Assembly (NCBI RefSeq): GCF_022436675.1
Contig: NZ_JAKUJZ010000005.1
Location: 372,001-436,000, forward strand
Origin: Rheinheimera hassiensis
GTDB taxonomy: Bacteria; Pseudomonadota; Gammaproteobacteria; Enterobacterales; Alteromonadaceae
Direction of reading: 5' to 3'
DNA: 64,000 bases
Under the pieces are notes generated by a model that was not told the origin of the DNA, did not search any database, and saw nothing but the letters and a program-made list of their open reading frames with translations. Shown here piece by piece: positions 6,700 through 63,776 of the stretch (its first letter is position 1; each line of letters starts with the position of its first letter). Made by a program: the position numbers and the translations under genes.

Positions 6700-6722
6700 A
6701 TTGCACTCCATCTGCACAGCGG

Positions 6723-40000: not shown

Positions 40001-40455
40001 TGCTGCCAGAGCGCTTGGTCATTTTGCCGCAATTGCCATTGACACCAAGCGGGAAGATTGATCGAAAAGCCTTAGCAGCATTAGCGTTGAAGCAACACCG
40101 TCATAGTCATGTAGCACCTAAAACTGACCTGCAATGTCAGTTGGTTGAGTTGTGGCACAAACTTACCGGCCAAACCGATATTGGTATTACGGACAATTTT
40201 TTTGCCCTCGGAGGAGATTCTATTTCCGCAGTCAAAATTGTGCGTTTCTTGCGTGAACAAGGCTATGACATGAACAACAAACTGTTATTTAGCCATCAGA
40301 CTATTGAAGATCTGACGACTCACTTACCCCAGCTCCTTACACCTTTGACTGGAAACGTCACTGAAATACAAGTCGACGGTATCGACATGTTGCTGACGGG
40401 AGATGGCGACAACAACGACCTGACAGCCATATTAAAAGAGTTTTCAGCCCGTTGA
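37075..40455 (+). CDS. Single-module NRPS with TubC-like N-terminal docking domain (C-A-T), Gly
   Basis: About 1,126 residues. Residues 1-55 (MNIEHLIGKAEQHDIELFLE ... LSEHKDAILHYL) resemble the TubC-type N-terminal docking domain, so it receives its chain from another protein, plausibly the giant NRPS. The C domain follows (~65-500); its active-site motif is HHIAVDESS, with the Gly of HHxxxDG replaced by Glu but His and Asp kept. The A domain (~520-1000) has specificity residues DILQLGMVWK, near the Gly code DILQLGLIWK. The T domain carries GGDS (~1046) and the tail is acidic (TGDGDNNDLTAIL). A GTG at 37066 is in frame, but ATG 37075 starts the docking domain directly. Shine-Dalgarno is weak. 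First gene of the plus-strand operon. Confidence 0.93.
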   Translation: MNIEHLIGKAEQHDIELFLENGKLGYRAYQSQPNRGLLDQLSEHKDAILHYLQQQAANMPDYCKPLPVSTSQQRIWTIDQLEHGSTEFHIPVALLLPRSVDLLTLTERLKTMVERHYVLRCVFTEKEGQLYQRVDSPDKLKLSVEDLTYLPYQNAIAQAQARIALDNQQTFNLAEDLPLRAILFRLPQQHAVIYLNIHHIAVDESSVTQLLEELLAENNVLQSAAPVQYADYVYWQQAYLRSYAFKQHLAAYVQLLTDAPALHSLPLDFPYSPLTSNAAAQYRIDLEPDLAVAAFTLCQQQQLTPFMLFQGALSAFLSIWTRSDDIVLGTPSILRPQDKFKQVVGCFLNLSVLRSQFTAGMTGLDVMKQARQLSLNLLDWQSVPFETLLEKLKPERSPLYSPLFQILFSMHMQGQQNTDSKQDSVTALAISRNTTKYDLTVHASVSKQHIAFNFDYKTDLFLPSSIEQLAQAFCQFLHTFILAPATDLTQISLVTERDSARLKQYNATIFDYPKSLRLDQLITQQAEATPDNIAIEAEQCLTYRQLELYSERIAISLAHHGVKSGDHVGIMLERSALMVCTMLALMKLEAAYVPLDPAYPLQRLKYIYQQANCTLLISDTIESATELGAKHSFSPETLLQRAQTSRPAATHLGSAATAYLIFTSGSTGQPKGIAIQHCNVVNFLLSMQTQPGITSQDKLLAVTPISFDISVLELFLPLISGACLVIAAQKQRDGFSLCQRLEQGDISLMQATPAGWQSVLDAGWKGQPGLKALSGGEMLPAQLANQLKQKTAALWNMYGPTETTVWSSMAAVNNTAQNKITIGRPIANTEIYVLTPNHQLCAFGQTGEIAIAGDGVSSGYYGQPELTLSRFISIKTAEGEKRVYLTGDLGRLTSDGQLQCLGRTDEQIKLRGFRIELTEIDAVMLTLSNIKQVATVLHKHNTGSTLVSYYCSKQPDTQDNELQLLLQLRQQLPAYMLPERLVILPQLPLTPSGKIDRKALAALALKQHRHSHVAPKTDLQCQLVELWHKLTGQTDIGITDNFFALGGDSISAVKIVRFLREQGYDMNNKLLFSHQTIEDLTTHLPQLLTPLTGNVTEIQVDGIDMLLTGDGDNNDLTAILKEFSAR

Positions 40456-46975: not shown

Positions 46976-49900
46976 ATGACGGCGACAATGACCCGTGCAG
47001 AGAAACTGCAAAAGCTGGCCCAGGCCAAACAACAGCTGGGAGCATTGCTGCCATTGTCAGCGGCTCAGCAACGATTCTGGTTTATTGAGCAACTAGAGCA
47101 CAGCAGCGGCCTGAACAATATTTTTAAAGCGCTGCTGATTACTGAGCCGCTGGACCAAGCGGCTTTGCAGCAGGCGCTTTACACTGTGACGCAGCGCCAC
47201 CCAACGATGTGCAGCCGCTTTATCAACACCCGTAATGGCCCAAGGCAACACACCGTGCCTGCGACAACACCACTGATCGCAGTGACTGACGTGACAACTT
47301 TAGCCGAAGCCAAAGCGCTGGCCAGCGCCGATGCACAACGAGGTTTTACTTTATCAGCAGAATTGCCATTTCGCTGCACGCTGTACCAGATGTCACAACA
47401 GCAGTTTCTGTTAACACTGTGCATTCATCACATTGTTGCCGATGGTTATGCGTTAAACCTGATCCTGGCAGAGTTACACACGCTTTACCGTCAGTTACTG
47501 GGACACGCTGTACCAGCATTAGCGCTGCCGGCTATAGATATGCAGCAGTACCTACAGCAACAGCAACTGGCAGAGCTTGTACAGTTACAACAGTTCTGGC
47601 AAAACACGCTGCAAGATTGCGAACCGCAATTACAGTTGAGCCGTAAAACTGCAGCTCTGAGCAACGACGGCGATTATTATTATTTCAGTTTACCGGCTGA
47701 TGTCTCTGCGCAAATCAGCCAGTTTTGCCAGCAACAACACATCACCCCTTTTAACCTGCTACTGGCTGTGTTTAATATTTTGTTACATAAGCTCAGCGAC
47801 CAACGCAATTTCATTGTTGCCACTCCGGTGTTAAATCGGGATCAACCGCAGCTAAAGCATTTTGTTGCCGCGGTGGCGAATACGTTATTGCTGCCAGCCG
47901 CTATAGACAGCAAGACCGCCGCCGGGCAGTACGTGCAGCAGTTACGACAGCAGTTTTATCAATGCCTGGCACATCAGCAACTGGGTTACTCACAGATCCT
48001 GGACTTGTTACAACCAGAGCGCGATATTAATCGTAATCCTCTGTTTCAGGTGATGTTTTCGTATAACGCACTGCAAGATGCCATAGCGGCACCCGACAAC
48101 AACTGGCAAAGCTGTGCGATACAACGACACTATGCCAAGCTGGATCTGACGCTGGAGCTGACATATCAGCACAGTGGTTTCCATGCCTATTTTGAATATA
48201 ACAAAGCCTCATTCAACGAAGGTGATATCAGTCGTTATGCCGAATTTTATGTCGAATTGGTGCAACAGGTTATTCAGCAACCAGAACGCCCATTGGCACA
48301 AATTGCACTAACAACTTTGGCTCAACAACAACAGCTGCTAGGCCATGCGCCAATCGCTGGTTCGGCAGAACAAGATATTTTGTCGGCGCTGCTAAAGACG
48401 GTTAATCGGATACCGCAACAAAGCGCGCTAACACAAACCAATGCCGCTCAGCAATTGAACTACAGTCAGCTGTGGCAGCTGGTAAAGCACTATAATGCCC
48501 TATTGCAGCAACATGGCATGGAACCCGGTCAGGTGGTAGCTATTAGTTGCGAGCACAGATTAACCGCCATTGTTGCCATGCTGTCAGTGCTGGCAGCTGG
48601 CGGCTGTTTTGTGATTATCGACCATGATATCAACGTCGATCGTAAGCAGTTTTTATATCAGGATAGTCAGGCATGTCTGACTATGACTGACCAGCCAGAC
48701 GTTGGCGCTATTGAGATAACATTAACGCCTGAGCTACTGCAACAATCAGCTGCAGTAGAAATCCAGTCCACCCAACCGGCTTATCTGGTGTATACCTCAG
48801 GCACTACCGGCACACCTAAGGGCGTAGTTGTTAGCCGGCAAGCACTGAGCAACCACGCCAGCAGCATGGCGCAACATTATCAGCTCAGCCAGTGTCGCAC
48901 CAGTTTACAAAGCTCTGCATTATCTTTTGATTTGGCACTGGAAGAAATTTTCCCGCCATTAATTGCCGGTTGCCACCTGCTGTTGCCCGCTCAGCAACAG
49001 ACGCTAACCTTCGACGAGCTGCGACAGTTGGTTACCCAGTACCAGATTGAACATCTGAGTCTATCGACTGCCTACTGGCAAAGTTGGATTAGCAGCTTGC
49101 TGCAGGCACAGCAGCCGCTGCCAGGCTGCATCCGTCAAATTGTTATCGGCACAGAACAATTAACCGGTACAGCCGTAAAAAGTTGGTTCAGCTTAACACC
49201 ACCACCTCAGGTCGTATTGTTTAATGCCTATGGCCCCAGTGAAGCCACCATCAGCTGTAGCTTACACCGGGTAACACCGCAGGATCAGTCGCTGCCTGAA
49301 GTACCGATAGGCAAAGCAATATTACCGAACCGGCTTTACGTGCTGGATGCAGATTTGATGCCTGTTCCCGTTGATGTTACCGGCCAACTATATATTGCCG
49401 GTGATAATCTGGCACTGGGCTATCACAATCAGCCTGAACTTAGCGCCAGCAAATTTATTTATCATCCATCAAGCGGTGAGCGACTGTATGCCACTGGCGA
49501 TCGTGTCTACTTCAGAGGCGACGGTAACATCTGCTTTGCCGGTCGTAACGATCAACAAATTAAGCTACGTGGCTATCGTATTGAGCTTGAAGGTATTCGC
49601 CAGCAAATACTGCAATACGGTGCTGTCGCTCAGTGCTATGTCACGGTCGTCGAGCCACAACAGCTAGTCGCTTATCTGGTGGCTGCCGACAATACTCTGC
49701 AACTGACTGGGCTGCGCCAGTATTTGCAGTCGCAGTTAGCCGAATATATGCTGCCACAGCATTTAATCTTGCTGGATGCCTTACCTCTTAACAACAGAGG
49801 CAAAGTTGATCAGACCAAACTGCCACGTCCGGATACAACCTTCAGTTCAGCTGCAGAGCAAACTAGCGACGATGTTATAGAACTTGCTTTGCTGGAAATT

Positions 49901-52900
49901 TGGCAACAGCTTTTACCCGACAAGCCGCTGCAGATGACACAAAACTTTTTTAGTGCCGGAGGTCATTCACTGTTGGCGCTGTCTATGTTAGCGCGGATTA
50001 AAGACAGCCTGCACAGTACTATCAGCCTGCGGCAGTTTTTTCAGCAGCCTACTATCCGGGCGCTGGCGCAGTTGGTACGTCAGCAAACCGGTGTGCAACC
50101 TGCTATCCCATTGTTACGCCAGCCAGAGCAAAACCTGTTTCCGCTGACAGCAAGCCAGCAACAAATGTGGGTGTTGCATCAGTTAGACAGCAGTGGTGCA
50201 GCCTACAACATGCCGATGCTGCTGCTACTGAACGGCGAATTAGATACGGTCAGTTTGCGCCATGTGTTGCAGCAAATAGCGCAGCAACAGGGCGCATTTC
50301 ACACCACTTATGTTGAAGATAACGGCACGGTGTTTCAGCGTCTGCATCGCAATACTGAACTACAGTTTAGCGAGCGTGATCTCTGCACTGCAGCCAATAC
50401 CCTGCCACAGTGCTTTGCCGCTGATGCCAACGTGCCCTTTGATCTGACAACCACGCCAGCATACCGGTTTGTGTTGTATAAGCTGGCACCACAGCGTCAT
50501 GCGCTGGGCGTAGTGATGCACCATATTAATGCCGATGGCAGCAGCTTCCAGTTACTGTTGCGTCAGCTTGCTTACGGCTATCGGCAGTTGCTGCAGCAAC
50601 AGCCCTGGCAAGCAGCACAACCCCAATTGCAAATGGCAGACCTGGCATTGTGGCAACAGCATGCTGATTATCAACAATGGCAACAACAGCAACTGGCTTA
50701 CTGGCAGCAACAGTTAAAAGATGTACCTCAACTGCTGGAACTAGCTACAGACTTTCCTCGTCCGTCGCAGCCGAGCTTCCGCGGTGGCCGCTGCCGTTTT
50801 CAGCTTACTGCAGATTGCGTCAACGCCTTAAAACAACAAGCCGAACAACGTGGTGCATCGCTGTACATGCTCAGCTTCGCCATTTGTGCTCAGCTATTAC
50901 ATGAGTTTTCCCGCCAGGACGATTTTGTTATTGGTATCCCGGTATCCGGACGCGACAACACGCAATACAGTGAACTGATGGGGCTGCTGCTGAACACCTT
51001 ACCTATCCGACTGCAATGGCAACCGGACATGACCTGCAGCCAATTGATTGCGCAGGCAAAGCAGCAAATTTTATCAGGCTTCGAGCATCAACAGTTGCAG
51101 TTACCGCAACTGCTGCAACGGCTGAATATTACGCGCAGCACCAGCCATAATCCGTTATTTCAGGTACTGTTTAACTTCAACCACAGTACTGCTGCCAGCA
51201 ATAGTGAACAGGCCATTACAGAACAGCTGTCGCTGGCTATGCCTGATAGTGATAACCACAGCGCCCGCTTTGATTTAAGTTTCAGTCTGACCTTACAAGG
51301 CGATAACTTAAGTGGCTTTATTGAGTACAGCGAAGATTTATTTTTGCCTGCCTCAGTTGAGCTGATGGTAACGCGGCTACAACAGTTATTTTGCCAGTTT
51401 GCTGAAAATACGGCCAGGCCACTGGCGACGCTGGAGCAAGAGCAACAAGCGGCGTTTATGGCGCAGTTACCTGAAACCAGCTGCAATAGTGTGCCCGCAT
51501 TTGACAACCTGAGCTGTTGGTTTGCAGATACCGCGTCACGCTTCGCCGATAACCAGGCACTGATAAGTGCTGATCGTCAGCTGAGCTACCGGCAACTGCA
51601 GGTTGAAGTTGACACCTTAGCAGCTCAGCTTTATCAGGCGGGTATCCGCCCTGGCGATTTGATCGGCGTTTGTTTACCCAGAGACAGTCAGTTGATCATC
51701 ACGCTACTGGCTATTTTCCGCTGCCAGGCGGCTTACCTGCCACTGGATCCTGAGTATCCTAAAGACCGCCTGCAGTATATTGTCACTGACGCTGCAGTGC
51801 GCGCCATTATCAGTAGCGATGAATTGCAAAGCGTACTGGCGTTACAAGACGCACCAGTCTGGCTGCTACCACAGCTGCAGCAGATGTCAGCAGAACCACT
51901 ACCCGAGTTATCCGGTCAACCACAACAACTGGCATACTGTATCTATACATCAGGTAGTACGGGTCGGCCTAAAGGGGTGGAGATAGGCCAGCACAGCATG
52001 CTGAACTTCCTGCAGGCCATGGCAACCGAACCCGGTATCACTGCCACCGATAAATTACTGGCAGTGACGCCAGTCTCATTTGATATTTCAGTATTAGAAC
52101 TGTTTCTACCCTTGCTACATGGCGCCTGCCTGGTGTTATTGCCACATCAGCAAAACCGCGACGGGCATAGTATTTCCCGCCAGTTACATCAACATCAGAT
52201 CAGTATTATGCAGGCAACGCCAGCTGGCTGGCGCTTGTTGCTGGAATCAGGCTGGACCGGACAAGCTAACTTAACCATGCTGACAGGCGGTGAAGCACTG
52301 CCAAAAGTACTGGCACAACGGCTGCTGGGTAAAGGCCGGCAGTTGTGGAATATGTATGGCCCAACCGAAGCCACGGTATGGGTATCATGTCAGCAAATAA
52401 CCGCGGATAACCTGAATTTAATCAGTACCGGTCTGGCAATCAGCAACAACCGGCTGTATGTCATGAATGCCGATGCCGAACTGGCCACAATTGGCAGCAA
52501 AGGCGAGTTATATATTGCCGGTGACAACCTGGCACTGGGCTATCGGGGCAAAGCCGAACTGACTGCTGAACGTTTTATTACCAAACAGTGGCACAACGGT
52601 AAACAGGAACGTCTATATCGTACCGGCGATTTAGTAAAACAATTGGCAGATGGCCGCTTGCTGTATCTGCAACGGCTTGATGAGCAAGTCAAACTGCATG
52701 GTTATCGTATTGAGCTGACAGAAATAGAAGCTGTCGCTGAACGTTATGCCGACGTTACCGCCTGCGCTGTGGTGCTGAGCCAGGCCAGTAATGGCGAGCC
52801 ATTACTGGTGGCGTTTTTTACCGCGCCACGACAATTAGATACCAGTAGTTTGGCAGCATACGCCTCCAGTTGGTTACCTTCTTATATGGTGCCCACATTA

Positions 52901-53287
52901 TGGCAGCAGTTGGACACCCTGCCTACAACCCCAAGCGGCAAGGTTGACAAGAAGCAACTGCGCCAGCGCGAACTTACTGAACAACTGCCGCAACAAGCTC
53001 TGGTAACAAGCACTGAACAACAATTAGCAACGTTGTGGCAAAAACTGCTGGGTATTGATGTGACCAGCCGTAACAGTAACTTTTTCCGTCTGGGCGGCAA
53101 CTCAGTGCTGGCGATGAAACAGCTGGCGTTAATCCGTCGTCAGTTCGGCGAGCATCTGCCGCTGGCGCTCGGTGATTTATTTGCCCATCAGCGGTTGGAC
53201 CAATTAGCAAACCGGCTGGACGAGCTGCAGTTACAAACGGTAGATGAAGATGAACTGTTAGCCATGATGGCTGAGATAACCGGATAA
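46976..53287 (+). CDS. Two-module NRPS (C-A-T-C-A-T), second module Gly
   Basis: 2,103 residues, starting 3 bp after the preceding stop with AGGA inside the upstream gene's end. A short N-terminal helix (TRAEKLQKLAQAKQQLG) precedes the first C domain (HHIVADGYA). A1 (TSGTTGTPKG at ~606) has specificity residues DLESVGAISK, whose last six match module 1 of the giant protein; a basic residue is possible. T1 is AGGHS (~995). The second C has HHINADGSS. A2 has DILQLGMVWK, a Gly-type code. T2 reads LGGNS (~2040) instead of the usual GGHS/GGDS. The tail (VDEDELLAMMAEITG) resembles that of the previous NRPS and is probably a docking helix. Confidence 0.93.
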   Translation: MTATMTRAEKLQKLAQAKQQLGALLPLSAAQQRFWFIEQLEHSSGLNNIFKALLITEPLDQAALQQALYTVTQRHPTMCSRFINTRNGPRQHTVPATTPLIAVTDVTTLAEAKALASADAQRGFTLSAELPFRCTLYQMSQQQFLLTLCIHHIVADGYALNLILAELHTLYRQLLGHAVPALALPAIDMQQYLQQQQLAELVQLQQFWQNTLQDCEPQLQLSRKTAALSNDGDYYYFSLPADVSAQISQFCQQQHITPFNLLLAVFNILLHKLSDQRNFIVATPVLNRDQPQLKHFVAAVANTLLLPAAIDSKTAAGQYVQQLRQQFYQCLAHQQLGYSQILDLLQPERDINRNPLFQVMFSYNALQDAIAAPDNNWQSCAIQRHYAKLDLTLELTYQHSGFHAYFEYNKASFNEGDISRYAEFYVELVQQVIQQPERPLAQIALTTLAQQQQLLGHAPIAGSAEQDILSALLKTVNRIPQQSALTQTNAAQQLNYSQLWQLVKHYNALLQQHGMEPGQVVAISCEHRLTAIVAMLSVLAAGGCFVIIDHDINVDRKQFLYQDSQACLTMTDQPDVGAIEITLTPELLQQSAAVEIQSTQPAYLVYTSGTTGTPKGVVVSRQALSNHASSMAQHYQLSQCRTSLQSSALSFDLALEEIFPPLIAGCHLLLPAQQQTLTFDELRQLVTQYQIEHLSLSTAYWQSWISSLLQAQQPLPGCIRQIVIGTEQLTGTAVKSWFSLTPPPQVVLFNAYGPSEATISCSLHRVTPQDQSLPEVPIGKAILPNRLYVLDADLMPVPVDVTGQLYIAGDNLALGYHNQPELSASKFIYHPSSGERLYATGDRVYFRGDGNICFAGRNDQQIKLRGYRIELEGIRQQILQYGAVAQCYVTVVEPQQLVAYLVAADNTLQLTGLRQYLQSQLAEYMLPQHLILLDALPLNNRGKVDQTKLPRPDTTFSSAAEQTSDDVIELALLEIWQQLLPDKPLQMTQNFFSAGGHSLLALSMLARIKDSLHSTISLRQFFQQPTIRALAQLVRQQTGVQPAIPLLRQPEQNLFPLTASQQQMWVLHQLDSSGAAYNMPMLLLLNGELDTVSLRHVLQQIAQQQGAFHTTYVEDNGTVFQRLHRNTELQFSERDLCTAANTLPQCFAADANVPFDLTTTPAYRFVLYKLAPQRHALGVVMHHINADGSSFQLLLRQLAYGYRQLLQQQPWQAAQPQLQMADLALWQQHADYQQWQQQQLAYWQQQLKDVPQLLELATDFPRPSQPSFRGGRCRFQLTADCVNALKQQAEQRGASLYMLSFAICAQLLHEFSRQDDFVIGIPVSGRDNTQYSELMGLLLNTLPIRLQWQPDMTCSQLIAQAKQQILSGFEHQQLQLPQLLQRLNITRSTSHNPLFQVLFNFNHSTAASNSEQAITEQLSLAMPDSDNHSARFDLSFSLTLQGDNLSGFIEYSEDLFLPASVELMVTRLQQLFCQFAENTARPLATLEQEQQAAFMAQLPETSCNSVPAFDNLSCWFADTASRFADNQALISADRQLSYRQLQVEVDTLAAQLYQAGIRPGDLIGVCLPRDSQLIITLLAIFRCQAAYLPLDPEYPKDRLQYIVTDAAVRAIISSDELQSVLALQDAPVWLLPQLQQMSAEPLPELSGQPQQLAYCIYTSGSTGRPKGVEIGQHSMLNFLQAMATEPGITATDKLLAVTPVSFDISVLELFLPLLHGACLVLLPHQQNRDGHSISRQLHQHQISIMQATPAGWRLLLESGWTGQANLTMLTGGEALPKVLAQRLLGKGRQLWNMYGPTEATVWVSCQQITADNLNLISTGLAISNNRLYVMNADAELATIGSKGELYIAGDNLALGYRGKAELTAERFITKQWHNGKQERLYRTGDLVKQLADGRLLYLQRLDEQVKLHGYRIELTEIEAVAERYADVTACAVVLSQASNGEPLLVAFFTAPRQLDTSSLAAYASSWLPSYMVPTLWQQLDTLPTTPSGKVDKKQLRQRELTEQLPQQALVTSTEQQLATLWQKLLGIDVTSRNSNFFRLGGNSVLAMKQLALIRRQFGEHLPLALGDLFAHQRLDQLANRLDELQLQTVDEDELLAMMAEITG

Positions 53288-53298
53288 ATATAACAATA

Positions 53299-56200
53299 AT
53301 GGATATCCCGATGGACATAGAAGAAAAGCTTAAGGCACTGTCACCCGAGCAAAAAGCGCTACTAATGCAGCGTCTGGCACAACGCCAGGGCAGCTCACCC
53401 GCTACGGCCTCATTGCTACCCAAAGCCGGGCTTGCGGCACATTACCCTCTGTCCCATGAACAGCAGCGCATCTGGTTTATGTCACAGTTCGATCCGGCGA
53501 GTCCGGAGTACAATATACCGATGGTTTATGCGGTAAAAGGCGCGGTGGACACAGCACGACTGACGAAAGCCGTGCTCCAGACGCTGGAATTTCACCCAAT
53601 CCTGCGCAGTCAATATCGCGAAGTGGATGGCACAGCTCGGCAGAATATTCTTAGTCTGGCAGATTTTATCAGCAATAAAGCCCACACCATTCTGCCCGTA
53701 GTCGACTTAACCGAACGGGGTGAGGAACAAGCCAAAAGTGACGCGCTACGCGAAATTAAAGAAGATGGCCATACGCCGTTCGATCTGCAGCATGACGGTG
53801 TCTTCCGCAGCCGTTTGTTCCATATCAGCCACGAGCACTATCTGTGGTATATCAATGTGCATCATATTGCCTTTGACGCCTGGTCACACGCCTTACTGAT
53901 ACAGCAAATTTTCCAATGCTACGACCAACTGGCCGATACTCAGCCTACAAGCGGTATTACCGACTATAGCTATATCGATTATGCCTGCTGGCAGCGCTCT
54001 GATGCTCAGGAAAAACTGCTTCTGAACAAACTGACTTACTGGAAAGATAAGCTGGCCGACGTTGCTCCGCTGGAACTGTATACCGACAGACCAAGGCCGT
54101 CAGAGCGCACCTATAATGGCAACTCCGTCGCTATCAACATTGCACCAGAGCTAAGCAGTCGATTAAGACAACTCAGCTACAACACCGGTGCGACTCCTTT
54201 TACCCTGATGCTTGCCACACTGCGCATACTGCTACACAAGTATAGCCGTCAGGATGACTTTGCCATTGGCACGTTAATCGCTAACCGCAACCGTACCGAA
54301 CTGGAAAATGTTATTGGATTCTTTACCAATACACTGGCATTTCGAACCTACGTCGATCCGCAACTCAACTTTATGCAACAGCTTGAGCAGGAAAAGACCA
54401 CTGTTTTTAATGCGTTCGCCAATCAGGATGTATCGTTTGAAAAGTTGGTAGAAGAGCTGAACCCGCCACGCGACATGAGCCGGGCCGCTATTTTTCAGGT
54501 GATGTTGATCCTCAACAATACGCAGAACCAGACCGATAACGAGCAAGCGACTAGAGCACCGGTAAACCAGGCATTGCAGCTACAAGCACTCACCACCGAA
54601 AATCAAACAGCCAAATATGACCTGACGTTTTATTTAAATGATACCGGCGAACTGAATGGCTTTATTGAATACAACACCGATTTATTTAACCACGATACGA
54701 TAATCAGGATGGCGGAACACCTGACCCTGTTGCTGCAACGGTTGCTTGCCCAGCCCCAGCAAAAGCTGGCCGATGTCAGTCTGCTCAGTGAACAGGAAAA
54801 ACAACAGATTTTGCAGCAGTGGAGTGTGGGTGACGAGCAGCCTGTTAATCAGGATACTTTAGACCAAATGGTGCAACGCCAAGCGCAAAAGACACCGGAT
54901 CTTGCCGCGGTAATTAGCCGCGAAACCACCTTAAGCTACCAGCAACTGGATACTCTAAGTACGGTGCTGGCGCAACACCTGCTGGCGCAAGGTGTTGGTT
55001 GCGGCAGCTATGTTGCCATTGCAACAGAACGCAATGCCGCCATGATTGTTGCCATGCTTGGTACGCTGAAAGCTGGTGCCGCTTATATTCCGGTTGACCT
55101 CAGCTACCCGCAGGACAGGGTGCAGTATATGTTTGACACCGCCAGCATCGCGGCAGTGATTACACAACCCAGTCTGGTTGCCAAGGTACCTGTCGGTAAC
55201 TGGCCTGCATTGCAACTTAACGCTGACGGCAAGCTACAACATGGTAGCGACCTGCCCGTTTTTGTACAGGTTGCTAAGGCGCAGCCAACCGATCAGGCCT
55301 ATGTCATTTTCACTTCAGGCTCAACCGGTTTACCCAAGGGCGTGATGATCCGCCATCAGACCGTGGCGAACTTTTTACAGGCGATGAGTCTTGCCCCCGG
55401 CGTAAAAGCTGGTGAGAAGCTGCTCGCCGTTACCACTATCAGCTTTGATATCGCCGTATTAGAGATTTTCCTGCCGCTGATTAATGGCGGCACTGTGGTA
55501 CTGGCTGACAAAGAACAGTTGCAGGATGCCAATTGCATTTTGCAGTTGATACAACAACATAATATCAGTGTTATGCAAGCTACACCGTCTATGTGGCGTA
55601 TGCTGTTAGACATGGGCTGGCAGGGTAAACGTGATATGCGCATACTCTGCGGCGGCGAAGCTTTACCGCCTGAACTGGCAGAAACGTTACTGCTACGTTC
55701 ATCGTCATTCTGGAACCTGTATGGCCCTACCGAGGCAACGGTTTGGTGCAGCCGGCATCGTATTGAAAGTGGGGATGGCGAAAACGGCGCAGTCACCATT
55801 GGCAAACCGATTGAAAACTCCCGGATGTATCTGCTGGATGAGCAAATGCAGCCGGTTCCTGTTGGCGTACCCGGTGAAATTTTTATTGGCGGCCACTGTT
55901 TAGCCGACGGCTATATGGCAAGGCCAGACCTCACCGCCGATGCGTTTGTTGCTGACCCGATCACAGGCCAAGGTGTGCTTTACCGCACCAGGGATTTAGC
56001 CCGCTACAACAGCGCAGGTAATATTATTTTTCTCGGTCGGGCAGATTCGCAGGTAAAAGTACGCGGTTTCCGGATTGAGCTGGGCGAAATTGATACCACA
56101 CTAAACAAACACCCTCAGGTACAGCAAGCCGTATCGGTGGTGCATGAAATCAAACCTGGTGATAAACGCATTATCTGTTATTTTACTGCCAGCGTGGCCA

Positions 56201-57951
56201 CCTTGGGGCATGACACTTTACGGCTCTATCTGAAAAAACATATTCCAGAATATATGGTTCCCGCCATTTTTATTCAGTTGGAAAAACTACCGCAGACACC
56301 AAACGGTAAAATTAACCGCCGCTCGCTGCCAAAGCCTTCAGCAGACCTGATCCAAAGTGGTGTGCCTTATGTTGCGCCGACAAACGATATAGAAACGGCA
56401 TTATGTCAGTTGTATCAGCAAATTCTGCGAACTGAACGCGTTGGCATTGAAGATGATTTTTTCAGCATGGGTGGCGATTCCTTACTGGTTATCCAGTTAG
56501 TGTCAAAGGCCAAGTTATGTCATATCAGCCTGACTGCGCGGCAAGTGTTTCAGCATAAAACGCCGCGTTTATTGGCACAGGCATCATTAACAACACAAAT
56601 ACTGCGCCAGCTAACCCCTGTTGAAGGCCCGGTAGCTATGACACCGGCTCAACGTCATTTTCTCAGCCTGCAGCATACTAACCCGCAGTTTCATACACTT
56701 GGGGTTTATCTGCAACCACGTGACAACGACTTTGACCTGGACGCCATTGAACGTGCATTGCAGCATGTATTAACCCGGCATGATAGCCTGCGAATGCGCC
56801 TGTCTGATGCAGACTCAAACCCACCCAGCCTGATTTGTGACAGTCCTCCAGACAAGGTGAAGCTAAACCAGGTTATCCTGGATGCTGAAGATCAAGCTGA
56901 CTATGAACGCCAATTAGGCAGACGGATCTATTACAGTGTTACCGCGCTGGACTTACAGCAAGGGCCATTATTTCAAGCCTGTTTATATCGTTGTAACCTG
57001 GACCTAAAGCCGACTCTGTTTTTGTTTGGTCATTTTATGCTGGCTGATATCGGCTCCTGGCACATCATTATCGACGATTTTGAGACCTGCTATCGCCAAT
57101 ACAGCCGTAATGAGCCGTTACAGCTGCCAGAAAAAGGCACCTCCTTTAAGCAGTGGGTCGAAAAATTGTCAGCCTGGGGCTACAGCGATGAAATGAAAAA
57201 CCAGCGACCATACTGGCTGTTGCCGGAGCGGAAATATGCCGCTGAACTGAGCAAGGATTTTCCTGCTGGCGAAAACCTGATGTCCAGCTCGCAGAGCGTC
57301 TATGTCCAGTTAGATCAACAACAAACCACTATATTGCTCGATGAAGTCCCCAAGATAACCGGCGCCAAAATTGATGCCATCTTACTGACTAGCATTGTTT
57401 ATGCCTTCAAACAAAGCTGTAGATCAAACAGTCTGATGATAGATCTGTTGGGGCATGGTAAAGAAGCGCTGTTTGACGATGTTGATTTGTCCCGCACAGT
57501 TGGCTGGTTTAACACGATTTACCCTGCCTTCCTCGACTATGGCAATAACAGCAATCCTGTGGCCGCTATTAAAGCTATCAACGAGCAGCTGCGAGCTATT
57601 CCTAACGGCGGCATTGGCTATGGTGTACTGCGCTATTTGAACCAGGATCAGGAATTAATTGAACATTTTAACCAAACCCCTGAGCCACAGGTGTTTTTCA
57701 ATTATTTTGGCCATGATAATCAAGCCGACTTACGCGTGTTACGCAAGGTCGATGGCTTTGGCGGCTATGGTTTGGATCACCAGACTAAACGGCTAAGACC
57801 TTTGGCGGTAGGGGTGTACATCAAAGAAGGGGTTATGGCTATTCGTTGGGAGTTTAGCAACACCATTTATCGTGTCGAACGAATTGAACAGCTGGCTGCA
57901 GACTGCAAGCAATGCATATTAGAAATATTAAATAATTACAACAAGTTATAA
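53299..57951 (+). CDS. Terminal NRPS (C-A-T-E), Gly module with degenerate epimerization domain
   Basis: 1,550 residues. The N-terminal helix (EEKLKALSPEQKALLMQRLA) is a typical docking-like segment. C domain with HHIAFDAWS (Gly to Ala in HHxxxDG). The A domain has specificity residues DILQLGLVWK, almost the textbook Gly code; its A7 motif reads YRTRD where YRTGD is expected. T domain MGGDS (~1060). The last ~450 residues are an E-type domain (RTVGWFN, IPNGGIGYGVLRY, PQVFFNYFG), but GHFMLADIGSW replaces HHxxxDGxSW and LGHGKE replaces EGHGRE. No TE follows. ATG 53299 has no clear Shine-Dalgarno; ATG 53311 (MDIEEKL) is an alternative start. Last NRPS of the operon, 13 bp before the MFS gene. 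Confidence 0.92.
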   Translation: MDIPMDIEEKLKALSPEQKALLMQRLAQRQGSSPATASLLPKAGLAAHYPLSHEQQRIWFMSQFDPASPEYNIPMVYAVKGAVDTARLTKAVLQTLEFHPILRSQYREVDGTARQNILSLADFISNKAHTILPVVDLTERGEEQAKSDALREIKEDGHTPFDLQHDGVFRSRLFHISHEHYLWYINVHHIAFDAWSHALLIQQIFQCYDQLADTQPTSGITDYSYIDYACWQRSDAQEKLLLNKLTYWKDKLADVAPLELYTDRPRPSERTYNGNSVAINIAPELSSRLRQLSYNTGATPFTLMLATLRILLHKYSRQDDFAIGTLIANRNRTELENVIGFFTNTLAFRTYVDPQLNFMQQLEQEKTTVFNAFANQDVSFEKLVEELNPPRDMSRAAIFQVMLILNNTQNQTDNEQATRAPVNQALQLQALTTENQTAKYDLTFYLNDTGELNGFIEYNTDLFNHDTIIRMAEHLTLLLQRLLAQPQQKLADVSLLSEQEKQQILQQWSVGDEQPVNQDTLDQMVQRQAQKTPDLAAVISRETTLSYQQLDTLSTVLAQHLLAQGVGCGSYVAIATERNAAMIVAMLGTLKAGAAYIPVDLSYPQDRVQYMFDTASIAAVITQPSLVAKVPVGNWPALQLNADGKLQHGSDLPVFVQVAKAQPTDQAYVIFTSGSTGLPKGVMIRHQTVANFLQAMSLAPGVKAGEKLLAVTTISFDIAVLEIFLPLINGGTVVLADKEQLQDANCILQLIQQHNISVMQATPSMWRMLLDMGWQGKRDMRILCGGEALPPELAETLLLRSSSFWNLYGPTEATVWCSRHRIESGDGENGAVTIGKPIENSRMYLLDEQMQPVPVGVPGEIFIGGHCLADGYMARPDLTADAFVADPITGQGVLYRTRDLARYNSAGNIIFLGRADSQVKVRGFRIELGEIDTTLNKHPQVQQAVSVVHEIKPGDKRIICYFTASVATLGHDTLRLYLKKHIPEYMVPAIFIQLEKLPQTPNGKINRRSLPKPSADLIQSGVPYVAPTNDIETALCQLYQQILRTERVGIEDDFFSMGGDSLLVIQLVSKAKLCHISLTARQVFQHKTPRLLAQASLTTQILRQLTPVEGPVAMTPAQRHFLSLQHTNPQFHTLGVYLQPRDNDFDLDAIERALQHVLTRHDSLRMRLSDADSNPPSLICDSPPDKVKLNQVILDAEDQADYERQLGRRIYYSVTALDLQQGPLFQACLYRCNLDLKPTLFLFGHFMLADIGSWHIIIDDFETCYRQYSRNEPLQLPEKGTSFKQWVEKLSAWGYSDEMKNQRPYWLLPERKYAAELSKDFPAGENLMSSSQSVYVQLDQQQTTILLDEVPKITGAKIDAILLTSIVYAFKQSCRSNSLMIDLLGHGKEALFDDVDLSRTVGWFNTIYPAFLDYGNNSNPVAAIKAINEQLRAIPNGGIGYGVLRYLNQDQELIEHFNQTPEPQVFFNYFGHDNQADLRVLRKVDGFGGYGLDHQTKRLRPLAVGVYIKEGVMAIRWEFSNTIYRVERIEQLAADCKQCILEILNNYNKL
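56590..57948 (+). other. Degenerate epimerization (E) domain at NRPS C-terminus
   Basis: Residues ~1098-1550 of the terminal NRPS. The His corresponding to GrsA His753 is at residue 1245 (GHF). Exactly 139 residues later, the spacing between His753 and the catalytic Glu892 in GrsA, residue 1384 is Leu (LGHGKE). The other E motifs are preserved, so the fold should be intact while epimerase chemistry is doubtful. Confidence 0.8.
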
Positions 57952-57964
57952 GAGGATAATTTCA

Positions 57965-59326
57965 ATGTTACTGCAATTTAAGGGCGCCAGCGATGGCATG
58001 AAAAAATACCAGTTGATGTGGACTGGTCAGCTGTTTTCTATCCTCGGTTCTGGCTTAACCAGCTTTGCACTGGGGCTGTGGATCCTGGGGCAAACCGATT
58101 CTGTTACCTCTTTTACCATGATAGCGGTGATTGCGGGTTTACCCGCGGTGCTGCTGGCGCCCTGGATAGGGGCCATTGTTGATCGCTATGACCGAAAATT
58201 GATCCTGATTCTTACCGACACTATTTCGGCACTGGTAACACTTTACATTGCAATCCAGTACATGAACGATAATTTAGTGTTCTGGCATATCTATGTCTGT
58301 GTACTTATCAGTTCAGTTGCTACTGCGTTTCAGGCTCCAGCCAACATTGCTGCTATCACCTCACTGGTAGAGCGTAAAGATTATGGCCGGGTCTCAGGCT
58401 TGATGCAATTTGCTGACTCCAGCAGCATGATCATCGCACCATTAGCTGCGGGGGCCTTACTAGCTTTTACTGACCTGACAACTATTTTACTGATTGACCT
58501 TGGTACTTATGCCATCGCCATGGTTACGTTAATTCTGGTTAAAATTCCTAAAGCCAAAGCCTTCAAGGGTGACAAGAAAGGCTCCAGTATGTGGCAGGAG
58601 TTTAAACTGGGCTGGGCTTATCTGTTTCAACACAAAGATCTGGTTTATTTACTGGTATTTTTCTGCCTGATCAACTTCGTTGTCAGTATGGGTACGATCT
58701 CAGTACTGCCGATGCTGCATTTCTTCGCCGATAAGTCTGAAATTGGTATGGTGTTGTCGGTCGGTGGTATCGGTATGTTATTGGGTTCTTTTTATCTGGC
58801 GTCAACCGGAGGCCCCGACAAAAAGATCCACGGTATCTTGGGTAGCGGCTTTTTAATGGGTTTTTGCTTGCTGTTACTGGGTATTTACCCGTCAATCTGG
58901 CTGATCATGCTCGGCTTATTCTGCTTCAAATTCTTATTACCGATGATTAATGGCTGCAGTCAGGCAATCTGGCAAGGTCGCATTCCTCCGGGTGTACAGG
59001 GGCGGGTGTTTGCCCTGCGCCGTATGTTTGCTCAGTTTACCATTCCACTTGGCGATTTCCTCGCCGGCCCGTTGGCAGACTTTGTGTTTGAGCCAGTAAT
59101 GCGTGGTAACAATATCGTTTCCAGCACGGTTGGACCAATAATTGGCACTGGACCGGGCCGGGGTATCGCCCTGATGTTAATTTGTTTATCTATATTGCCA
59201 ATGCTGTTTGCTTTGTGGGGTTACAGCAATAAACAAATCCGCCATATCAGCGATGAACCAGATCCAGAGCATGAAGACGCTGATAGTCAAGATCAGACAG
59301 GCACTACTGCGGCAACAAACAGCTAA
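57965..59326 (+). CDS. MFS exporter, EntS-like
   Basis: A 453-residue major facilitator with about 12 hydrophobic segments and the cytoplasmic loop motif DRYDRK between helices 2 and 3 (residues ~75-80). The long stretch PGVQGRVFALRRMFAQFTIP near helix 10 is typical of MFS exporters associated with siderophore and peptide synthetases (EntS type). It presumably moves the finished peptide, or a precursor, across the inner membrane by proton antiport. The C-terminus is a hydrophilic, acidic tail rich in Glu, Asp and Gln. The start has AGAGGAT about 8 bases upstream and follows the last NRPS by 13 bp, so it is cotranscribed. Substrate assignment comes from context only. Confidence 0.88.
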   Translation: MLLQFKGASDGMKKYQLMWTGQLFSILGSGLTSFALGLWILGQTDSVTSFTMIAVIAGLPAVLLAPWIGAIVDRYDRKLILILTDTISALVTLYIAIQYMNDNLVFWHIYVCVLISSVATAFQAPANIAAITSLVERKDYGRVSGLMQFADSSSMIIAPLAAGALLAFTDLTTILLIDLGTYAIAMVTLILVKIPKAKAFKGDKKGSSMWQEFKLGWAYLFQHKDLVYLLVFFCLINFVVSMGTISVLPMLHFFADKSEIGMVLSVGGIGMLLGSFYLASTGGPDKKIHGILGSGFLMGFCLLLLGIYPSIWLIMLGLFCFKFLLPMINGCSQAIWQGRIPPGVQGRVFALRRMFAQFTIPLGDFLAGPLADFVFEPVMRGNNIVSSTVGPIIGTGPGRGIALMLICLSILPMLFALWGYSNKQIRHISDEPDPEHEDADSQDQTGTTAATNS

Positions 59327-59363
59327 TTATGTCTGTTCAATTTCAAACTTACAGGAGCCGTAT

Positions 59364-60617
59364 ATGGACGTGGTAAAACAAAAATCTGCCCACGCCAACT
59401 ATAAACAAAAAGCGATGTTGCTGTTTTGCATAGTCCTGGTGATTGTTGTCGCCATCCTGCTGATGGGAAAAGAGTCTCATCGGCAGATCAACCGCAACCA
59501 GTTGGTGTTAAGTACGGTAAAACAAGGAGATCTGCGTGTACAAGTACAGGGCTATGGCGTGCTCAGGTCGCACAGGCAGAAGCTGTTAACCTCCCTCACG
59601 TCTGCCACCGTAGAAGAAATCATCCTGCGTCCTGGGGCGCAGGTTACGCCCGATAGCATCATAATGAAGCTGAATAACCCTGAGCTGCACGAAGAAACGG
59701 AACGCGCCAGAATGCAGCTAAATCAGGAGAAAGCTAATTTGCGCAAATTGGAGCTGAACAATCAGCGTGAGTTGTTAGCGGAGGAGTCTAATCTGGCGGA
59801 GATGGTGGCGAAGTTCAACATGGTTAAATTGCGTCGAGAAGCAGAACAAGAGCTGGTTGATAAAGGTGTGGTATCTCAACTTACCTATAAAACTACAGTA
59901 CTGGAGCAAGAGCAACTGCATGACAGCATGCGCATCCAGCAAAATCGCATAGCGCAATTAAAGTTGGTTAATCAGGAAGCGCTGAATATTCAGCAAGAGC
60001 AGATTAACCAAGCCGAAGCACTATACTTCACTGTCAAAAACCGCGTTGATGCTTTGGCTGTTAAAGCTGGTATTAACGGTATATTACAAAGGCTCCCGGT
60101 AGAGTTAGGCCAAAGTATTGCTGCAGGACAAGAGTTGGCATTGGTAGGTAGCGAACAAGACCTGCTTGCACTAATCCGTGTACCTCAAGCTCAGGCAGAA
60201 AGAATTAGTGTAGGTCAACTGGCTGAAGTGACGACCCGCAGGGATCTGCTGCCTGGCAAAGTCAGCCGCATTACCCCTGAAGTACAAGAAGGCACGGTAA
60301 CGATAGAAATCCAGTTCACAGCAGCACACTTACCTGCATCGGCAAGACCTGAACTGAGCGTTGATGCGGTTATTTACACTGCTGAGCTTAAAAACACCCT
60401 GTACATAGACCGGCCGGTAAATGTGCGGGTTAATTCCAGCAACAGTCTGTACAAACTGGATCAGACACGACAACTGGCGGAGTACTCGGAGGTTCGCTAC
60501 GGCGAAGACGCCGGAAAATATATCCAGTTGCTTGAAGGTGCCGCTGTCAATGACACCTTTATTGTGTCGGATATGACAGGCTTTACTGACAGCAAACGCA
60601 TAAGTATTACAAACTAA
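59364..60617 (+). CDS. HlyD/MacA-family periplasmic adaptor subunit
   Basis: A 417-residue membrane-fusion protein. It has one N-terminal membrane anchor (~residues 16-34, LLFCIVLVIVVAILLMG), a first lipoyl/barrel part, a long charged helical hairpin (~105-215, rich in Glu, Gln, Leu and Arg), then the second half-lipoyl segment (INGILQRLPVELGQSIAAG) and beta-barrel domains. It would bridge the ABC permease to an outer-membrane TolC-type channel, which is not encoded here. The ATG at 59364 is chosen because AGGAG lies 6 bases upstream; the frame is open further into the MFS gene but that extension would overlap it. First gene of the ABC export set. Confidence 0.9.
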   Translation: MDVVKQKSAHANYKQKAMLLFCIVLVIVVAILLMGKESHRQINRNQLVLSTVKQGDLRVQVQGYGVLRSHRQKLLTSLTSATVEEIILRPGAQVTPDSIIMKLNNPELHEETERARMQLNQEKANLRKLELNNQRELLAEESNLAEMVAKFNMVKLRREAEQELVDKGVVSQLTYKTTVLEQEQLHDSMRIQQNRIAQLKLVNQEALNIQQEQINQAEALYFTVKNRVDALAVKAGINGILQRLPVELGQSIAAGQELALVGSEQDLLALIRVPQAQAERISVGQLAEVTTRRDLLPGKVSRITPEVQEGTVTIEIQFTAAHLPASARPELSVDAVIYTAELKNTLYIDRPVNVRVNSSNSLYKLDQTRQLAEYSEVRYGEDAGKYIQLLEGAAVNDTFIVSDMTGFTDSKRISITN

Positions 60618-60634
60618 ATGAAAAGGAAACGGTT

Positions 60635-61342
60635 ATGCGCGAATTAAAAATTAAAATGGCTGGAATTACCAAAATTTTCAGCACTGATGAAATGGATACT
60701 CATGCTCTCAGAGGAATAGATCTGGAGATTTACAGTGGCGATTTTGTCTCCATTTGTGGCCCGTCTGGTTGTGGTAAATCTACTCTGCTGTCTATTCTGG
60801 GGTTACTCGATATGCCCAGCAATGGTCAGTATCTGATTGAAGATAAAGATGTCAGCCGCCTTTCGCTCACAGAGGCGGCAGAAATCCGTAACGCCAAAAT
60901 TGGTTTTATCTTTCAGTCCTTTAATCTGATAGATGAACTAAGCGTATTTGATAACGTTGCCCTGCCATTACGCTATGCACAGCAAGCGCCGAAGCAGGAC
61001 GAAATTGAGAAACGAGTGATGCAATGTCTGGAAAAGGTTGATATGGCGCACCGCGCCAAACATAAACCTAACCAGTTATCTGGTGGGCAGCAACAGCGAG
61101 TAGCAATCGCCAGAGCACTGATCGCCAACCCTGCCATTTTGTTGGTTGACGAACCCACCGGTAACCTTGATTCAAAAAATGGTGATGCCGTTATGGCTAT
61201 GCTGATGCAACTCAATAAAGAGGGGACAACTTTGTGCATGGTGACACATGATCCTCGTTACGCAGAGATGGCGAACCGTAAACTACATCTGCTGGATGGC
61301 CAAATAACCGATAAAGCCGGTATATTAGCGGAGGCTAGTTAA
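60635..61342 (+). CDS. ABC transporter ATP-binding protein, MacB/LolD type
   Basis: A 235-residue ATPase of the MacB/LolD class. Walker A GPSGCGKST (~42-50), Q-loop in FQSFNL, signature LSGGQQQR (~148), Walker B LLVDEPTGNLD and the switch His in MVTHD are all intact. It powers the adjacent FtsX-type permease; unlike MacB itself, ATPase and permease are separate proteins. The start has AAGGA 7 bases upstream and lies 17 bp after the adaptor gene; the stop is one base before the permease ATG. Confidence 0.95.
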   Translation: MRELKIKMAGITKIFSTDEMDTHALRGIDLEIYSGDFVSICGPSGCGKSTLLSILGLLDMPSNGQYLIEDKDVSRLSLTEAAEIRNAKIGFIFQSFNLIDELSVFDNVALPLRYAQQAPKQDEIEKRVMQCLEKVDMAHRAKHKPNQLSGGQQQRVAIARALIANPAILLVDEPTGNLDSKNGDAVMAMLMQLNKEGTTLCMVTHDPRYAEMANRKLHLLDGQITDKAGILAEAS

Positions 61343-61343
61343 T

Positions 61344-63776
61344 ATGTTCAGCTACTTTATCAGAACGGCTGCTAATAGTTTAAAACATGTGCCCGGTTAT
61401 GTGTTGACGATAGTCCTGACTTTTGGTCTGACGCTCGGCGCTCTGGTTTGCATGTTTAATCTAAACTATTTACTACTGTATAAACCGCTCCCCTATCCTG
61501 ATCAACAACAGCTGTATGTCACAAACTGGACACACCACGACGATGGCCGCCTCAGATTCAATAATGCCCAGAACTACCCAGGTCTAATGGAGTTATATCA
61601 ACAGACTGATCAGTTCGAACAGCGTGCTTTTATAAAATATAGTGAAGCAGTACTGACAAATGATGACGCCAAACCGAAATTAAAAGCTAATTTTATCACG
61701 CCTGATTATTTCTCAATGTTAGGCACGCAGTATGTGCTGGGGCGCGGATTCTCAGCAGAAGAAGGTTTGCACTCCAAGGTGCCAGTTGCCGTAATAAGTT
61801 ATCAGCTATGGCAGGATTTATACAAAGGCAAGCCAGATATCCTGTCCGAAAAAATGATGTTCAACGGCACCAGTTTCAATATTGTTGGCGTTACAGCAAG
61901 AAACTTTGTCGAGCCACAACTACATGAAACAGGCCGCAATACTCAGGTATGGTTGCCATGGGACTTTAACCCACTTCCACCTGGAGACGATACTGCCTGG
62001 GGTATGTTTTTTATTGAGATTTATCTGGTTGCTAAACTGAACGAAGGTCAGTCTGTCAGCCAAACAGAACATAACCTTTCTACACTGATTAATAAAAGAT
62101 TCCGTGAAGAAGTAACTGGTGTGCCTTATTTTGATAGCCGGAAAATCGCTGTTAGTTTGCGTAGCTTTGAAAACGTTATTATGGGTGACTCTCGCTCCAG
62201 AGCCTTACTGATGTTCGCAGGAGTATTGGTACTGGTATTAATAGCAGCAGTCAATATCATCAATCTTATTCTGGCTCGCGCAGCAAATAATCACCGTAAA
62301 ATCGTGATCCAGATTGCCCTGGGAGCAAAACGTCAGCATATCTTCGGCGTAATTTTTGCCGAAATTCTGATGCTAATGCTAGCTGCCAGCACACTGGCGA
62401 TTGTGATCGCTCACCTTGGTAATACCCTGCTGATATCCGTAGCGCAAACACAGTTGCCCAGAGTAGCAGAATTATCGCTGAATTTGCCTACTGTGTTATT
62501 CTCCTGGACCATAGGTATCGTGCTGGCAGCTATTTTCTCTCTGATCACTACCAGCCAGCTCAACTATCGAGAACTAAATAAAACATTACAGGCCAGCGGT
62601 AAAGGTGCAGGTTTACAAATATCCTCTCGCATCCGTAATCTCCTGATTATCAGCCAGGTTACTCTGTGTGGTGTACTCATCAGCTGTAACCTTCAAGTAT
62701 TCAGCTCTGCTGTCAAAGCAATACAAGCCCCCTTGGGTTTTACTACTGAATCGAAAACATTTCTTGATTTTGACCTCGGTGAGCTGGTGATGGCGCCGGC
62801 AGAAGAGCGGCGCAACTACATTGAGGCAATAGCAAGACAGCTGGAGCAACACAATGCGATAGAAAAAGTCAGCCTTGCGAGTAATGCCCCAATGGCCAGA
62901 ACAGTAAATATTGAGTGGACCACCGCAGTTACATCAGAGCTTGGTGGTGGCATATCTATAGGTCCCGGCATCGGAACTATAGATGAAAACTATATGCCAT
63001 TAGTGGGACTATCTTTTATTGCAGGTCGTAATGTTACAGCTGAAGAAGTTACTGCACGTGACAAAGTAGCGGTGATTAATGAAACGATGGCACAAATGTT
63101 GTCGCCAGACAGCTCTGCCCTTGGCAAACCGTTTTATTTCAACAATCAGTCCGTGCCTTACCACGTGGTAGGTATCGTAAAAGATTTAACTATCCCAAAC
63201 CAGCTTAATATGCCACGCATCTATGTACCTATGCTGCGTGGCGCAACCTATCTGGTGTCTTATAAACCTAATCAGCAGTTGTCTGCCGCACAGTTAAATC
63301 AGTTGGCAGCTCAGGTCAGCTCACAAATTTACCTGTACGATATGTATTCGATGAATGATGTTCATCAGCTGAAGATATCTATGGACAAAATATCTGCCTG
63401 GGTGACGGCGATACTGGGTTTATTATCCCTGTTTTTAGCAGCAGTGGGAGTATACGGTGTATTAAGTTACAGCATGACCTTGCGTAAATTTGAGTTGGGT
63501 ATTCGTCTGGCCATTGGCGCCACACCAAAACGGATCATGACATTGGTTTGCAAGGACACTATGGTACCCGTTTTAATAGGGTTAACCTGCAGCACCGCCC
63601 TATTACTAGCGCTATTAAGTTACGTGAAGAACAAACCCTGGTTCACTGTATCAGTTGAACTGTCATCGTTTATTATTCCTGTTGGGCTAATCTGTACTAT
63701 CGCCATCGCAACTGCCATTTTGGCAGTTTGGGGCGTTGCCAGTAAACCTGCAATTCACTCTCTGCGTAGCAACTAA
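61344..63776 (+). CDS. ABC transporter permease, MacB/FtsX type, duplicated
   Basis: An 810-residue permease with two FtsX halves. Each half starts with a membrane helix followed by a large periplasmic MacB_PCD-like domain and ends with three helices, giving eight spans (about 20-45, 288-312, 333-360, 380-402, 432-453, 686-710, then two near the C-terminus). Permeases of this size usually work mechanically with a HlyD-type adaptor and a LolD-like ATPase to drive periplasmic substrates through TolC. Here they may export the NRPS product. The ATG sits one base after the ATPase stop, with GGAGG 9 bases upstream inside the ATPase gene. A strong hairpin after the stop marks the operon end. Confidence 0.92.
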   Translation: MFSYFIRTAANSLKHVPGYVLTIVLTFGLTLGALVCMFNLNYLLLYKPLPYPDQQQLYVTNWTHHDDGRLRFNNAQNYPGLMELYQQTDQFEQRAFIKYSEAVLTNDDAKPKLKANFITPDYFSMLGTQYVLGRGFSAEEGLHSKVPVAVISYQLWQDLYKGKPDILSEKMMFNGTSFNIVGVTARNFVEPQLHETGRNTQVWLPWDFNPLPPGDDTAWGMFFIEIYLVAKLNEGQSVSQTEHNLSTLINKRFREEVTGVPYFDSRKIAVSLRSFENVIMGDSRSRALLMFAGVLVLVLIAAVNIINLILARAANNHRKIVIQIALGAKRQHIFGVIFAEILMLMLAASTLAIVIAHLGNTLLISVAQTQLPRVAELSLNLPTVLFSWTIGIVLAAIFSLITTSQLNYRELNKTLQASGKGAGLQISSRIRNLLIISQVTLCGVLISCNLQVFSSAVKAIQAPLGFTTESKTFLDFDLGELVMAPAEERRNYIEAIARQLEQHNAIEKVSLASNAPMARTVNIEWTTAVTSELGGGISIGPGIGTIDENYMPLVGLSFIAGRNVTAEEVTARDKVAVINETMAQMLSPDSSALGKPFYFNNQSVPYHVVGIVKDLTIPNQLNMPRIYVPMLRGATYLVSYKPNQQLSAAQLNQLAAQVSSQIYLYDMYSMNDVHQLKISMDKISAWVTAILGLLSLFLAAVGVYGVLSYSMTLRKFELGIRLAIGATPKRIMTLVCKDTMVPVLIGLTCSTALLLALLSYVKNKPWFTVSVELSSFIIPVGLICTIAIATAILAVWGVASKPAIHSLRSN

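Follow-up and report, generated by a model that had tools for sequence, protein, structure and literature searches.

A conserved epimerization-type domain without its catalytic pair at the end of a nonribosomal peptide assembly line in Rheinheimera hassiensis

How nonribosomal peptide synthetase (NRPS) assembly lines without a terminal thioesterase (TE) free their product is often unclear, and the case described here bears on that question. The window, a stretch of 64,000 nucleotides from Rheinheimera hassiensis, houses a 16-module NRPS made up of the proteins N10, A1, A2, A3 and A4 (Table 1). A4 ends in a domain of the epimerization (E) type, here called E-star. The original prediction held that this domain has lost its catalytic Glu, that it follows a module for Gly, which has no stereocentre, and that it is either a relic or a domain turned to another use, chain release or docking for instance. 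What, then, is an epimerase fold doing at this place?

Table 1. Position and strand of the NRPS proteins, of the domains and residues of A4, and of other cluster genes in the window
Feature	Position	Strand	Remark
Phosphopantetheinyl transferase (EntD-like)	5214..5942	+	
Stand-alone thioesterase (PF00975)	5914..6717	-	after N10
N10, ten-module NRPS	6723..36755	-	starts A-T; 16 residues past last T
A1, TubC_N docking domain + C-A-T	37066..40455	+	Gly-like code; GGDSI carrier
A2, C-A-T-C-A-T	40490..46972	+	
A3, C-A-T-C-A-T	46976..53287	+	
A4, terminal module C-A-T-E-star	53299..57951	+	1550 aa
A4 condensation domain	53434..54804	+	PF00668
A4 adenylation domain (model envelope)	54931..56412	+	code DILQLGLVWK, Gly-like
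A4 carrier (T) domain	56371..56577	+	GGDSL motif
E-star, epimerization-type domain	56590..57948	+	neither catalytic residue; C-terminal end of protein
His1120	56656..56658	+	12/12 E-star; canonical Trp 109/138
His1126	56674..56676	+	12/12 E-star; 6/139 canonical
His1132	56692..56694	+	12/12 E-star; 0/140 canonical
His1245	57031..57033	+	first of His pair, kept
Phe1246	57034..57036	+	site of catalytic second His
Leu1384	57448..57450	+	site of catalytic Glu
Asn1405	57511..57513	+	motif E5; canonical Thr 142/142
Asn1428	57580..57582	+	before E6; canonical Lys 131/142
MFS exporter	57965..59326	+	directly after A4
Periplasmic adaptor, ABC ATPase, ADOP-type permease	59208..63776	+	downstream of MFS exporter

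The terminal domain and its lost catalytic pair

The domain lies where it had been placed, at the end of a C-A-T-E protein. It matches solved E domains over its full length (HMMER E-values 1e-43 to 9e-61); residue-by-residue alignments were obtained for PvdL (9lcq, 9e-61) and BacC (9rde, 3e-56), and the E domains of GrsA (5isw), TycA (2xhg) and TycB also match in the same search. Against TIGR01720 it scores 82.2 bits, above the cut-off of 74.2, and it is the only one of the five matches in the genome to do so. Most E motifs are kept, as had been stated: E5 (RTVGWF), E6 (GIGYG) and E7 (FNYxG) are all present.

The Glu is indeed gone, the canonical xEGHGRE reading LLGHGKE in E-star, with Leu1384 aligned to the Glu. 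The His motif likewise reads GHFMLADIGSW against the canonical HHLxxDGVSW, but the claim that the active His is kept did not hold: in HHxxxD the first His is matched by His1245 and the second by Phe1246 (PvdL and BacC alignments, MAFFT). It is the second His, together with the Glu, that we take to be catalytic, as established for GrsA and TycA. The His-Glu spacing of 139 residues had been counted from the first His, and from Phe1246 to Leu1384 it is 138. The missing Glu was therefore correctly noted but understated the loss, which takes in both residues of the catalytic pair.

In phylogenies E-star falls among E domains, not among condensation (C) domains. It forms one clade inside E (support 100) in each of two trees with nine E-star rows, the second of which includes three rows found later. 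The MAFFT alignment of E domains had been reduced from 182 matches to 86 by score and length; the first tree used 45 of 62 diverse canonical rows, and the second left out seven E rows (L171, L170, L059, L010, L046, L051 and L006) and 8 of 15 C rows. Its neighbours are E domains from Acidobacteriota, a placement that is weakly supported (92, some forks being unresolved, in the first tree and 65 in the second), and it stands apart from the canonical Rheinheimera and Pseudoalteromonas E domains, a group with support 97 in the first tree. Kinship was considered with five cyanobacterial E domains whose Glu motif is changed (to EGN in four and EGR in one) and of which some read DVGSW like E-star, and was rejected: they keep His and Glu and are not grouped with it. 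Of the marks of an active epimerase, E-star thus has the profile, the place in the E clade and motifs E5 to E7, and lacks the second His and the Glu; judged by profile and tree, it is an E-type domain with both acid/base residues lost.

This double loss was confined to E-star among 165 unique E domains from 199 loci (matches below 120 bits or 350 model positions omitted; identical sequences merged, 184 to 165). At five examined positions 142 of them show H, H, D, E, H, and nine, all of the E-star family, show H, F, D, L, H; the remaining 14 all keep the second His, with Glu in 10, Cys in three and Gln in one. All 156 domains outside the clade have the second His and 152 of them have the Glu, counts that are biased and not natural frequencies because the set was gathered by likeness to E-star.

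The code of the A4 adenylation (A) domain is Gly-like, as claimed. The pocket regions of its two best solved-structure matches read DILQLGVVW (AB3403, 4zxh/4zxi) and DILQLGLIW (DhbF, 5u89), and both of these A domains presumably take Gly. The code is Gly-like in all 11 readable E-star modules, that of the genome G1337 being unreadable. A code starting DILQ lies upstream in eight of eight readable cases in the clade, against none of the 121 readable among the 156 E domains outside it. E-star might still epimerize, or exchange at the alpha carbon, by means of different residues, its substrate being chiral should the code have been misread; motifs E5 to E7 are kept, and three His residues new to the family, described below, could replace the base. 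Against this stand the pocket matches and the Gly-like code in every readable module, and we regard such residual activity as very improbable.

Distribution, conservation and a private signature

Matches at E-star level occur in at least 12 genomes, all in one clade, from Rheinheimera, Pseudoalteromonas and Acidobacteriota. They were found in at least 4 of 31 Rheinheimera genomes; in at least 4 of 108 Pseudoalteromonas genomes (975-982 bits, next match 336; best 14 candidates per genome scored); and in at least 4 of 148 genomes of the class of Holophagales UBA5704 (536-839 bits, next 382; best 10 candidates per genome scored). Among the best four candidates per genome, a class sample of 369 genomes gave the window genome (G000) alone and an order sample of 394 gave only the three Rheinheimera drawn; among the best three, a sample of 396 genomes of G429's phylum gave G429 alone. 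The closest named relative among the matches listed is Rheinheimera sp. EpRS3, whose domain is 100% identical. Five lineages can be told apart (Rheinheimera, Pseudoalteromonas, UBA5704, G1337 and G1352/G1353), with small motif changes between them, RTVGWL in G1337 and GMGYG in G1352 and G1353. The simple reading is that E-star may have spread by transfer between phyla, to which the tree gives no direction.

Wherever the upstream genes were read, namely in the window, R. pacifica, P. rubra, XMcav2-N, G855, Holophagales UBA5704, G1352 and G1353, the E-star gene closes the run of NRPS genes; these eight are the E-star genomes other than G024, G029, G847 and G1337. Gene order in P. rubra is that of the window, as it is in XMcav2-N and G855 as far as read. 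The last six module codes of G1353 and G1352 are alike in kind with the window's, running Gly-like, DTENIGTV, Gly-like, D(L,V)E(S,D,N)(V,I,L)GA(I,V)S, Gly-like and Gly-like with E-star, the first of them having been read in two pieces in G1352. Only the third differs, being DALWLGGTF in the window, which we take to be a Val code. The five-module line of Holophagales UBA5704 ends in DVENVGAIT, followed by a second code that is presumably Ser-like and then by a Gly-like code with E-star.

Two observations concern N10. The code of its module 7, TRWVFSLSDK, is without the Asp to which the alpha-amino group is usually bound, and the matching site of P. rubra reads IRWVFSLSDK, which suggests an unusual substrate. 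Its modules 3 and 5 have the same codes and identical short stretches round the A3 and T motifs, and are likely to reflect internal module duplication.

Within A4, identity to R. pacifica is 87.5% for C, 87.4% for A, 91.3% for T and 91.2% for E-star; to P. rubra it is 52.1, 61.0, 63.8 and 63.9%, and to Holophagales 40.5, 45.6, 52.2 and 40.8%, respectively. E-star therefore equals T as the most conserved domain in the two closer comparisons, and in the third it equals C and falls below A and T. The dN/dS values against R. pacifica (E-star 0.023, T 0.025, C 0.057, A 0.070) are rough, dS being above 1 and saturated. By these measures E-star is under purifying selection.

Twelve E-star rows from the five lineages were compared with 142 canonical E domains. 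A1117, H1120, H1126, H1132, F1246, G1252, L1384, N1405, N1428 and D1473 are present in all 12. The same residue occurs in 1 of 138, 4 of 138, 6 of 139 and 0 of 140 canonical rows at the first four of these positions, and in none of 142 at each of the other six. Some of the new invariant residues belong to the E1 region, others to motifs E5 to E7 or their flanks. On a motif alignment, which is not a structural one, H1120 would fall where C domains carry the Arg of their C1 motif. According to PMC8097023, the tunnel that leads to the active site in the C3 domain of FscG is lined and gated by an Arg, R2577, which is connected with helix 1; a gate Arg of this type is common in LCL domains, and a small residue is found in DCL domains. 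We infer that H1120 may be the equivalent of FscG R2577.

Decay of E domains does occur in this family. The GGDS carrier motif is of the type found before E domains, and the window's A1 ends in such a carrier alone. Its counterparts in G1353 (L223:12530-18793(-)) and G1352 (L224:530-2887(+)) end in a second degenerate E domain, which follows a Gly-like module, reads AHPLALDDGSW and has no EGHGRE. This second domain changes much faster than E-star: between these two genomes, a single pair, it is 59% identical (259/437), against 89% (415/464) for E-star. It is not a copy of E-star, having kept Trp at the 1120 position (AQRWLL) and falling outside the E-star clade, on long branches that leave its place unsure. 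An inactive E domain after PCP2 is also described for the linear gramicidin synthetase LgrA in PMC8150014, and E-star could be a structural remnant of this kind, kept after a Gly module for folding, gating or behaviour, as may hold for LgrA. Such a remnant would sit poorly with conservation level with T in the two closer comparisons, with a private signature in 12 of 12 rows, and with the contrast between 89% and 59% in the same genome pair, and we consider it improbable. The suggestion of a relic is disfavoured because the domain is under selection (dN/dS about 0.02, dS saturated) and has a private signature in two phyla. E-star is very probably a non-epimerizing, selected terminal domain.

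Docking, release or recruitment of a partner

Docking to a downstream protein is unlikely because the features that would serve it are missing. Among 81 E domains that end a protein, 67 have a tail of 20-34 residues, all with Glu, and 14 have a tail of 0-3 residues (nine E-star, three with Cys, one with Gln and one canonical, L075). The tail of E-star measures 0-1 residues in nine rows and 0-4 in the three later ones, and by eye it also lacks the acidic stretch with which most upstream subunits end.

Some of the other short-tailed proteins merit a separate mention. L200 (G063), L202 (G423) and L203 (G047) are single-module C-A-T-E synthetases of 1517-1530 aa from three families of the order, in which Glu is replaced by Cys (CGHGR), the His pair is kept and the docking tail is absent; the stretches read held no other NRPS gene. 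The terminal protein L204:9557-15898(-) (G046) has, by eye, a PLP-decarboxylase-like stretch in its A region and a terminal E-type domain with Glu replaced by Gln, and its neighbours are a TE homologue (41%) and an MFS-like gene.

Nor does the line end in a fused TE. A Pfam scan found no TE domain in A4, A1 or A2, and N10 and A3, with 16 and 25 residues past the last T and no inner gap above 43, have no space for one; over N10 and A1-A4 as a whole, 1-46 residues follow the last domain and inner gaps reach 43. A separate TE is present in the gammaproteobacterial E-star clusters, that of the window being presumably type II by its N-terminal motif. With the window TE as sole query, no homologue was found in the stretches (8-100 kb) of Holophagales, G1352, G1353 and G1337.

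Recruitment for something else, such as chain release, is accordingly the part of the original prediction that fits best, because of the terminal place and the absence of a fused TE; release itself we infer from these two features. A terminal module that has no docking peptide, no fused TE and no epimerization would have termination as its natural job, and E-star can be pictured as a pseudo-epimerase that has taken on a new task in the final step of the assembly line. Its fold would still receive the finished peptidyl-glycyl-phosphopantetheine through an E-type tunnel, E5 to E7 being kept, and could not abstract the alpha proton, the acid/base pair being gone. The tunnel would have been rebuilt by His1120, which replaces a Trp where C domains have their gate Arg, together with His1126 and His1132, so as to hold the thioester and admit a nucleophile, whether water, an amine or one of the peptide's own. 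Alternatively, E-star would present the thioester to a partner in trans, for example the separate TE of the gammaproteobacterial clusters. A role in release, by catalysis or by such presentation, is a serious candidate to which we would give a little under an even chance. In its strongest form, which seems rather doubtful, E-star would be an undescribed TE-independent release catalyst of epimerase ancestry, in which three His of the E1 region form a centre at the gate of the tunnel and, as general base or with a metal, cleave or transfer the terminal glycyl thioester.

Several points count against release. The positions of the three His in the fold are those suggested by alignment. The residue used by C-type release domains, the second His of HHxxxDG, is gone, and in the gammaproteobacterial clusters the separate TE could be enough for release. 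E-star is less conserved than A and T against Holophagales (40.8 versus 45.6 and 52.2%). The inactive E domain of LgrA lies mid-line, so inactivity need not mean release, and all E-star domains have one origin, so their association with a terminal place and with Gly counts once.

A further possibility is that E-star is a non-catalytic recruitment platform, much as the X domain serves P450s, binding a partner (a separate TE, an exporter or a tailoring enzyme) and presenting the peptidyl carrier to it. Replacement of the catalytic pair by hydrophobic residues, the TE of the gammaproteobacterial clusters, and the MFS homologue that follows the E-star gene in 12 of 12 genomes would all suit this reading. 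Identity of these MFS proteins to the window's is 90-99% in Rheinheimera, 63-64% in Pseudoalteromonas, 50% in G1337 and 44% in each of UBA5704, G1352 and G1353; similar genes (33-35%) lie near some cyanobacterial NRPS, and the gene is not private to E-star. Yet no P450 or other oxygenase was found among the window genes scanned, the Acidobacteriota stretches read have no homologue of the window TE, so that no soluble partner shared by every cluster came to light, and some newly fixed positions belong to core motifs or adjoin them (N1405 within E5, N1428 before E6). LgrA speaks against a platform as well as against release, since its mid-line domain shows that inactive E domains can be kept for different reasons. 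A platform of this kind is possible and, on balance, unlikely.

Beyond the MFS gene, UBA5704, G1337 and G1353 have what is by eye an outer-membrane-like protein, those of the other two being 58% and 63% identical to G1353's. Farther on in G1353 (L222:7638-10510(-)) follow genes that are by eye radical-SAM-like and methyltransferase-like, and G1352 has genes with similar starts in matching order.

Finally, the order of the line might be non-colinear, with A4 passing its chain to the C domain at the start of A2. In G1353, however, the A1 counterpart that comes before the A2 counterpart has kept an E-type domain and tail at its end. That first C domain of A2 (40511-41842) is itself atypical, reading THLQLDGW with the first His lost and having the longest tree branch (2.55); its counterparts also score low against the C model.

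Relation to known systems

Inactive E domains are mentioned in general and as a hypothesis in PMC9431178 and PMC3940840. A literature search found no description of an E-type domain with the E-star signature at the end of a line, subscription journals being mostly outside its reach, so that this is no proof of absence; a search with the Gly code strings found no paper. For an inactive E domain behind a module that presumably takes Gly there is a precedent in LgrA; what we have not seen described is the terminal place, the loss of both residues and the signature of new His. Here, then, an E-fold domain without catalytic residues is under selection at the ends of lines without fused TE in two phyla. 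Its signature would let genome-mining tools stop predicting a D-residue at this place, and the three named His are targets for one-by-one mutation in what may be an epimerase fold turned termination domain.

With the canonical E domains of GrsA, TycA, PvdL and BacC, E-star shares the whole-domain match, TIGR01720 and motifs E5 to E7; it differs in its Phe/Leu pair, its three-His E1 region, the missing docking tail, the Gly-like module and its place at the end of the line. LgrA, whose module 2 we take to use Gly, resembles it, by description, in the inactive E domain after PCP2, but three more synthetase proteins follow there, so that this domain is not terminal. Recruitment by a domain is familiar from the interface domain of siderophore synthetases, which brings a beta-hydroxylase to an Asp module. 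The X domain of glycopeptide synthetases, located in the last module, has like E-star a C/E-type fold without the active pair. X domains have the motif HRxxxDD and recruit P450s, as set out in PMC11546977; E-star is not one of them, for it lies inside the E clade, reads HFxxxDxGSW, is not followed by a TE and has no P450 among the window genes scanned. PMC11546977 also describes the CT domains of fungal NRPS and of IvoA, which have a C-fold, end a line and release the chain. E-star too ends a line, but has no HHxxxDG and is by tree E, not C, and so is not a CT domain. It may nonetheless work like an X or a CT domain while being neither.
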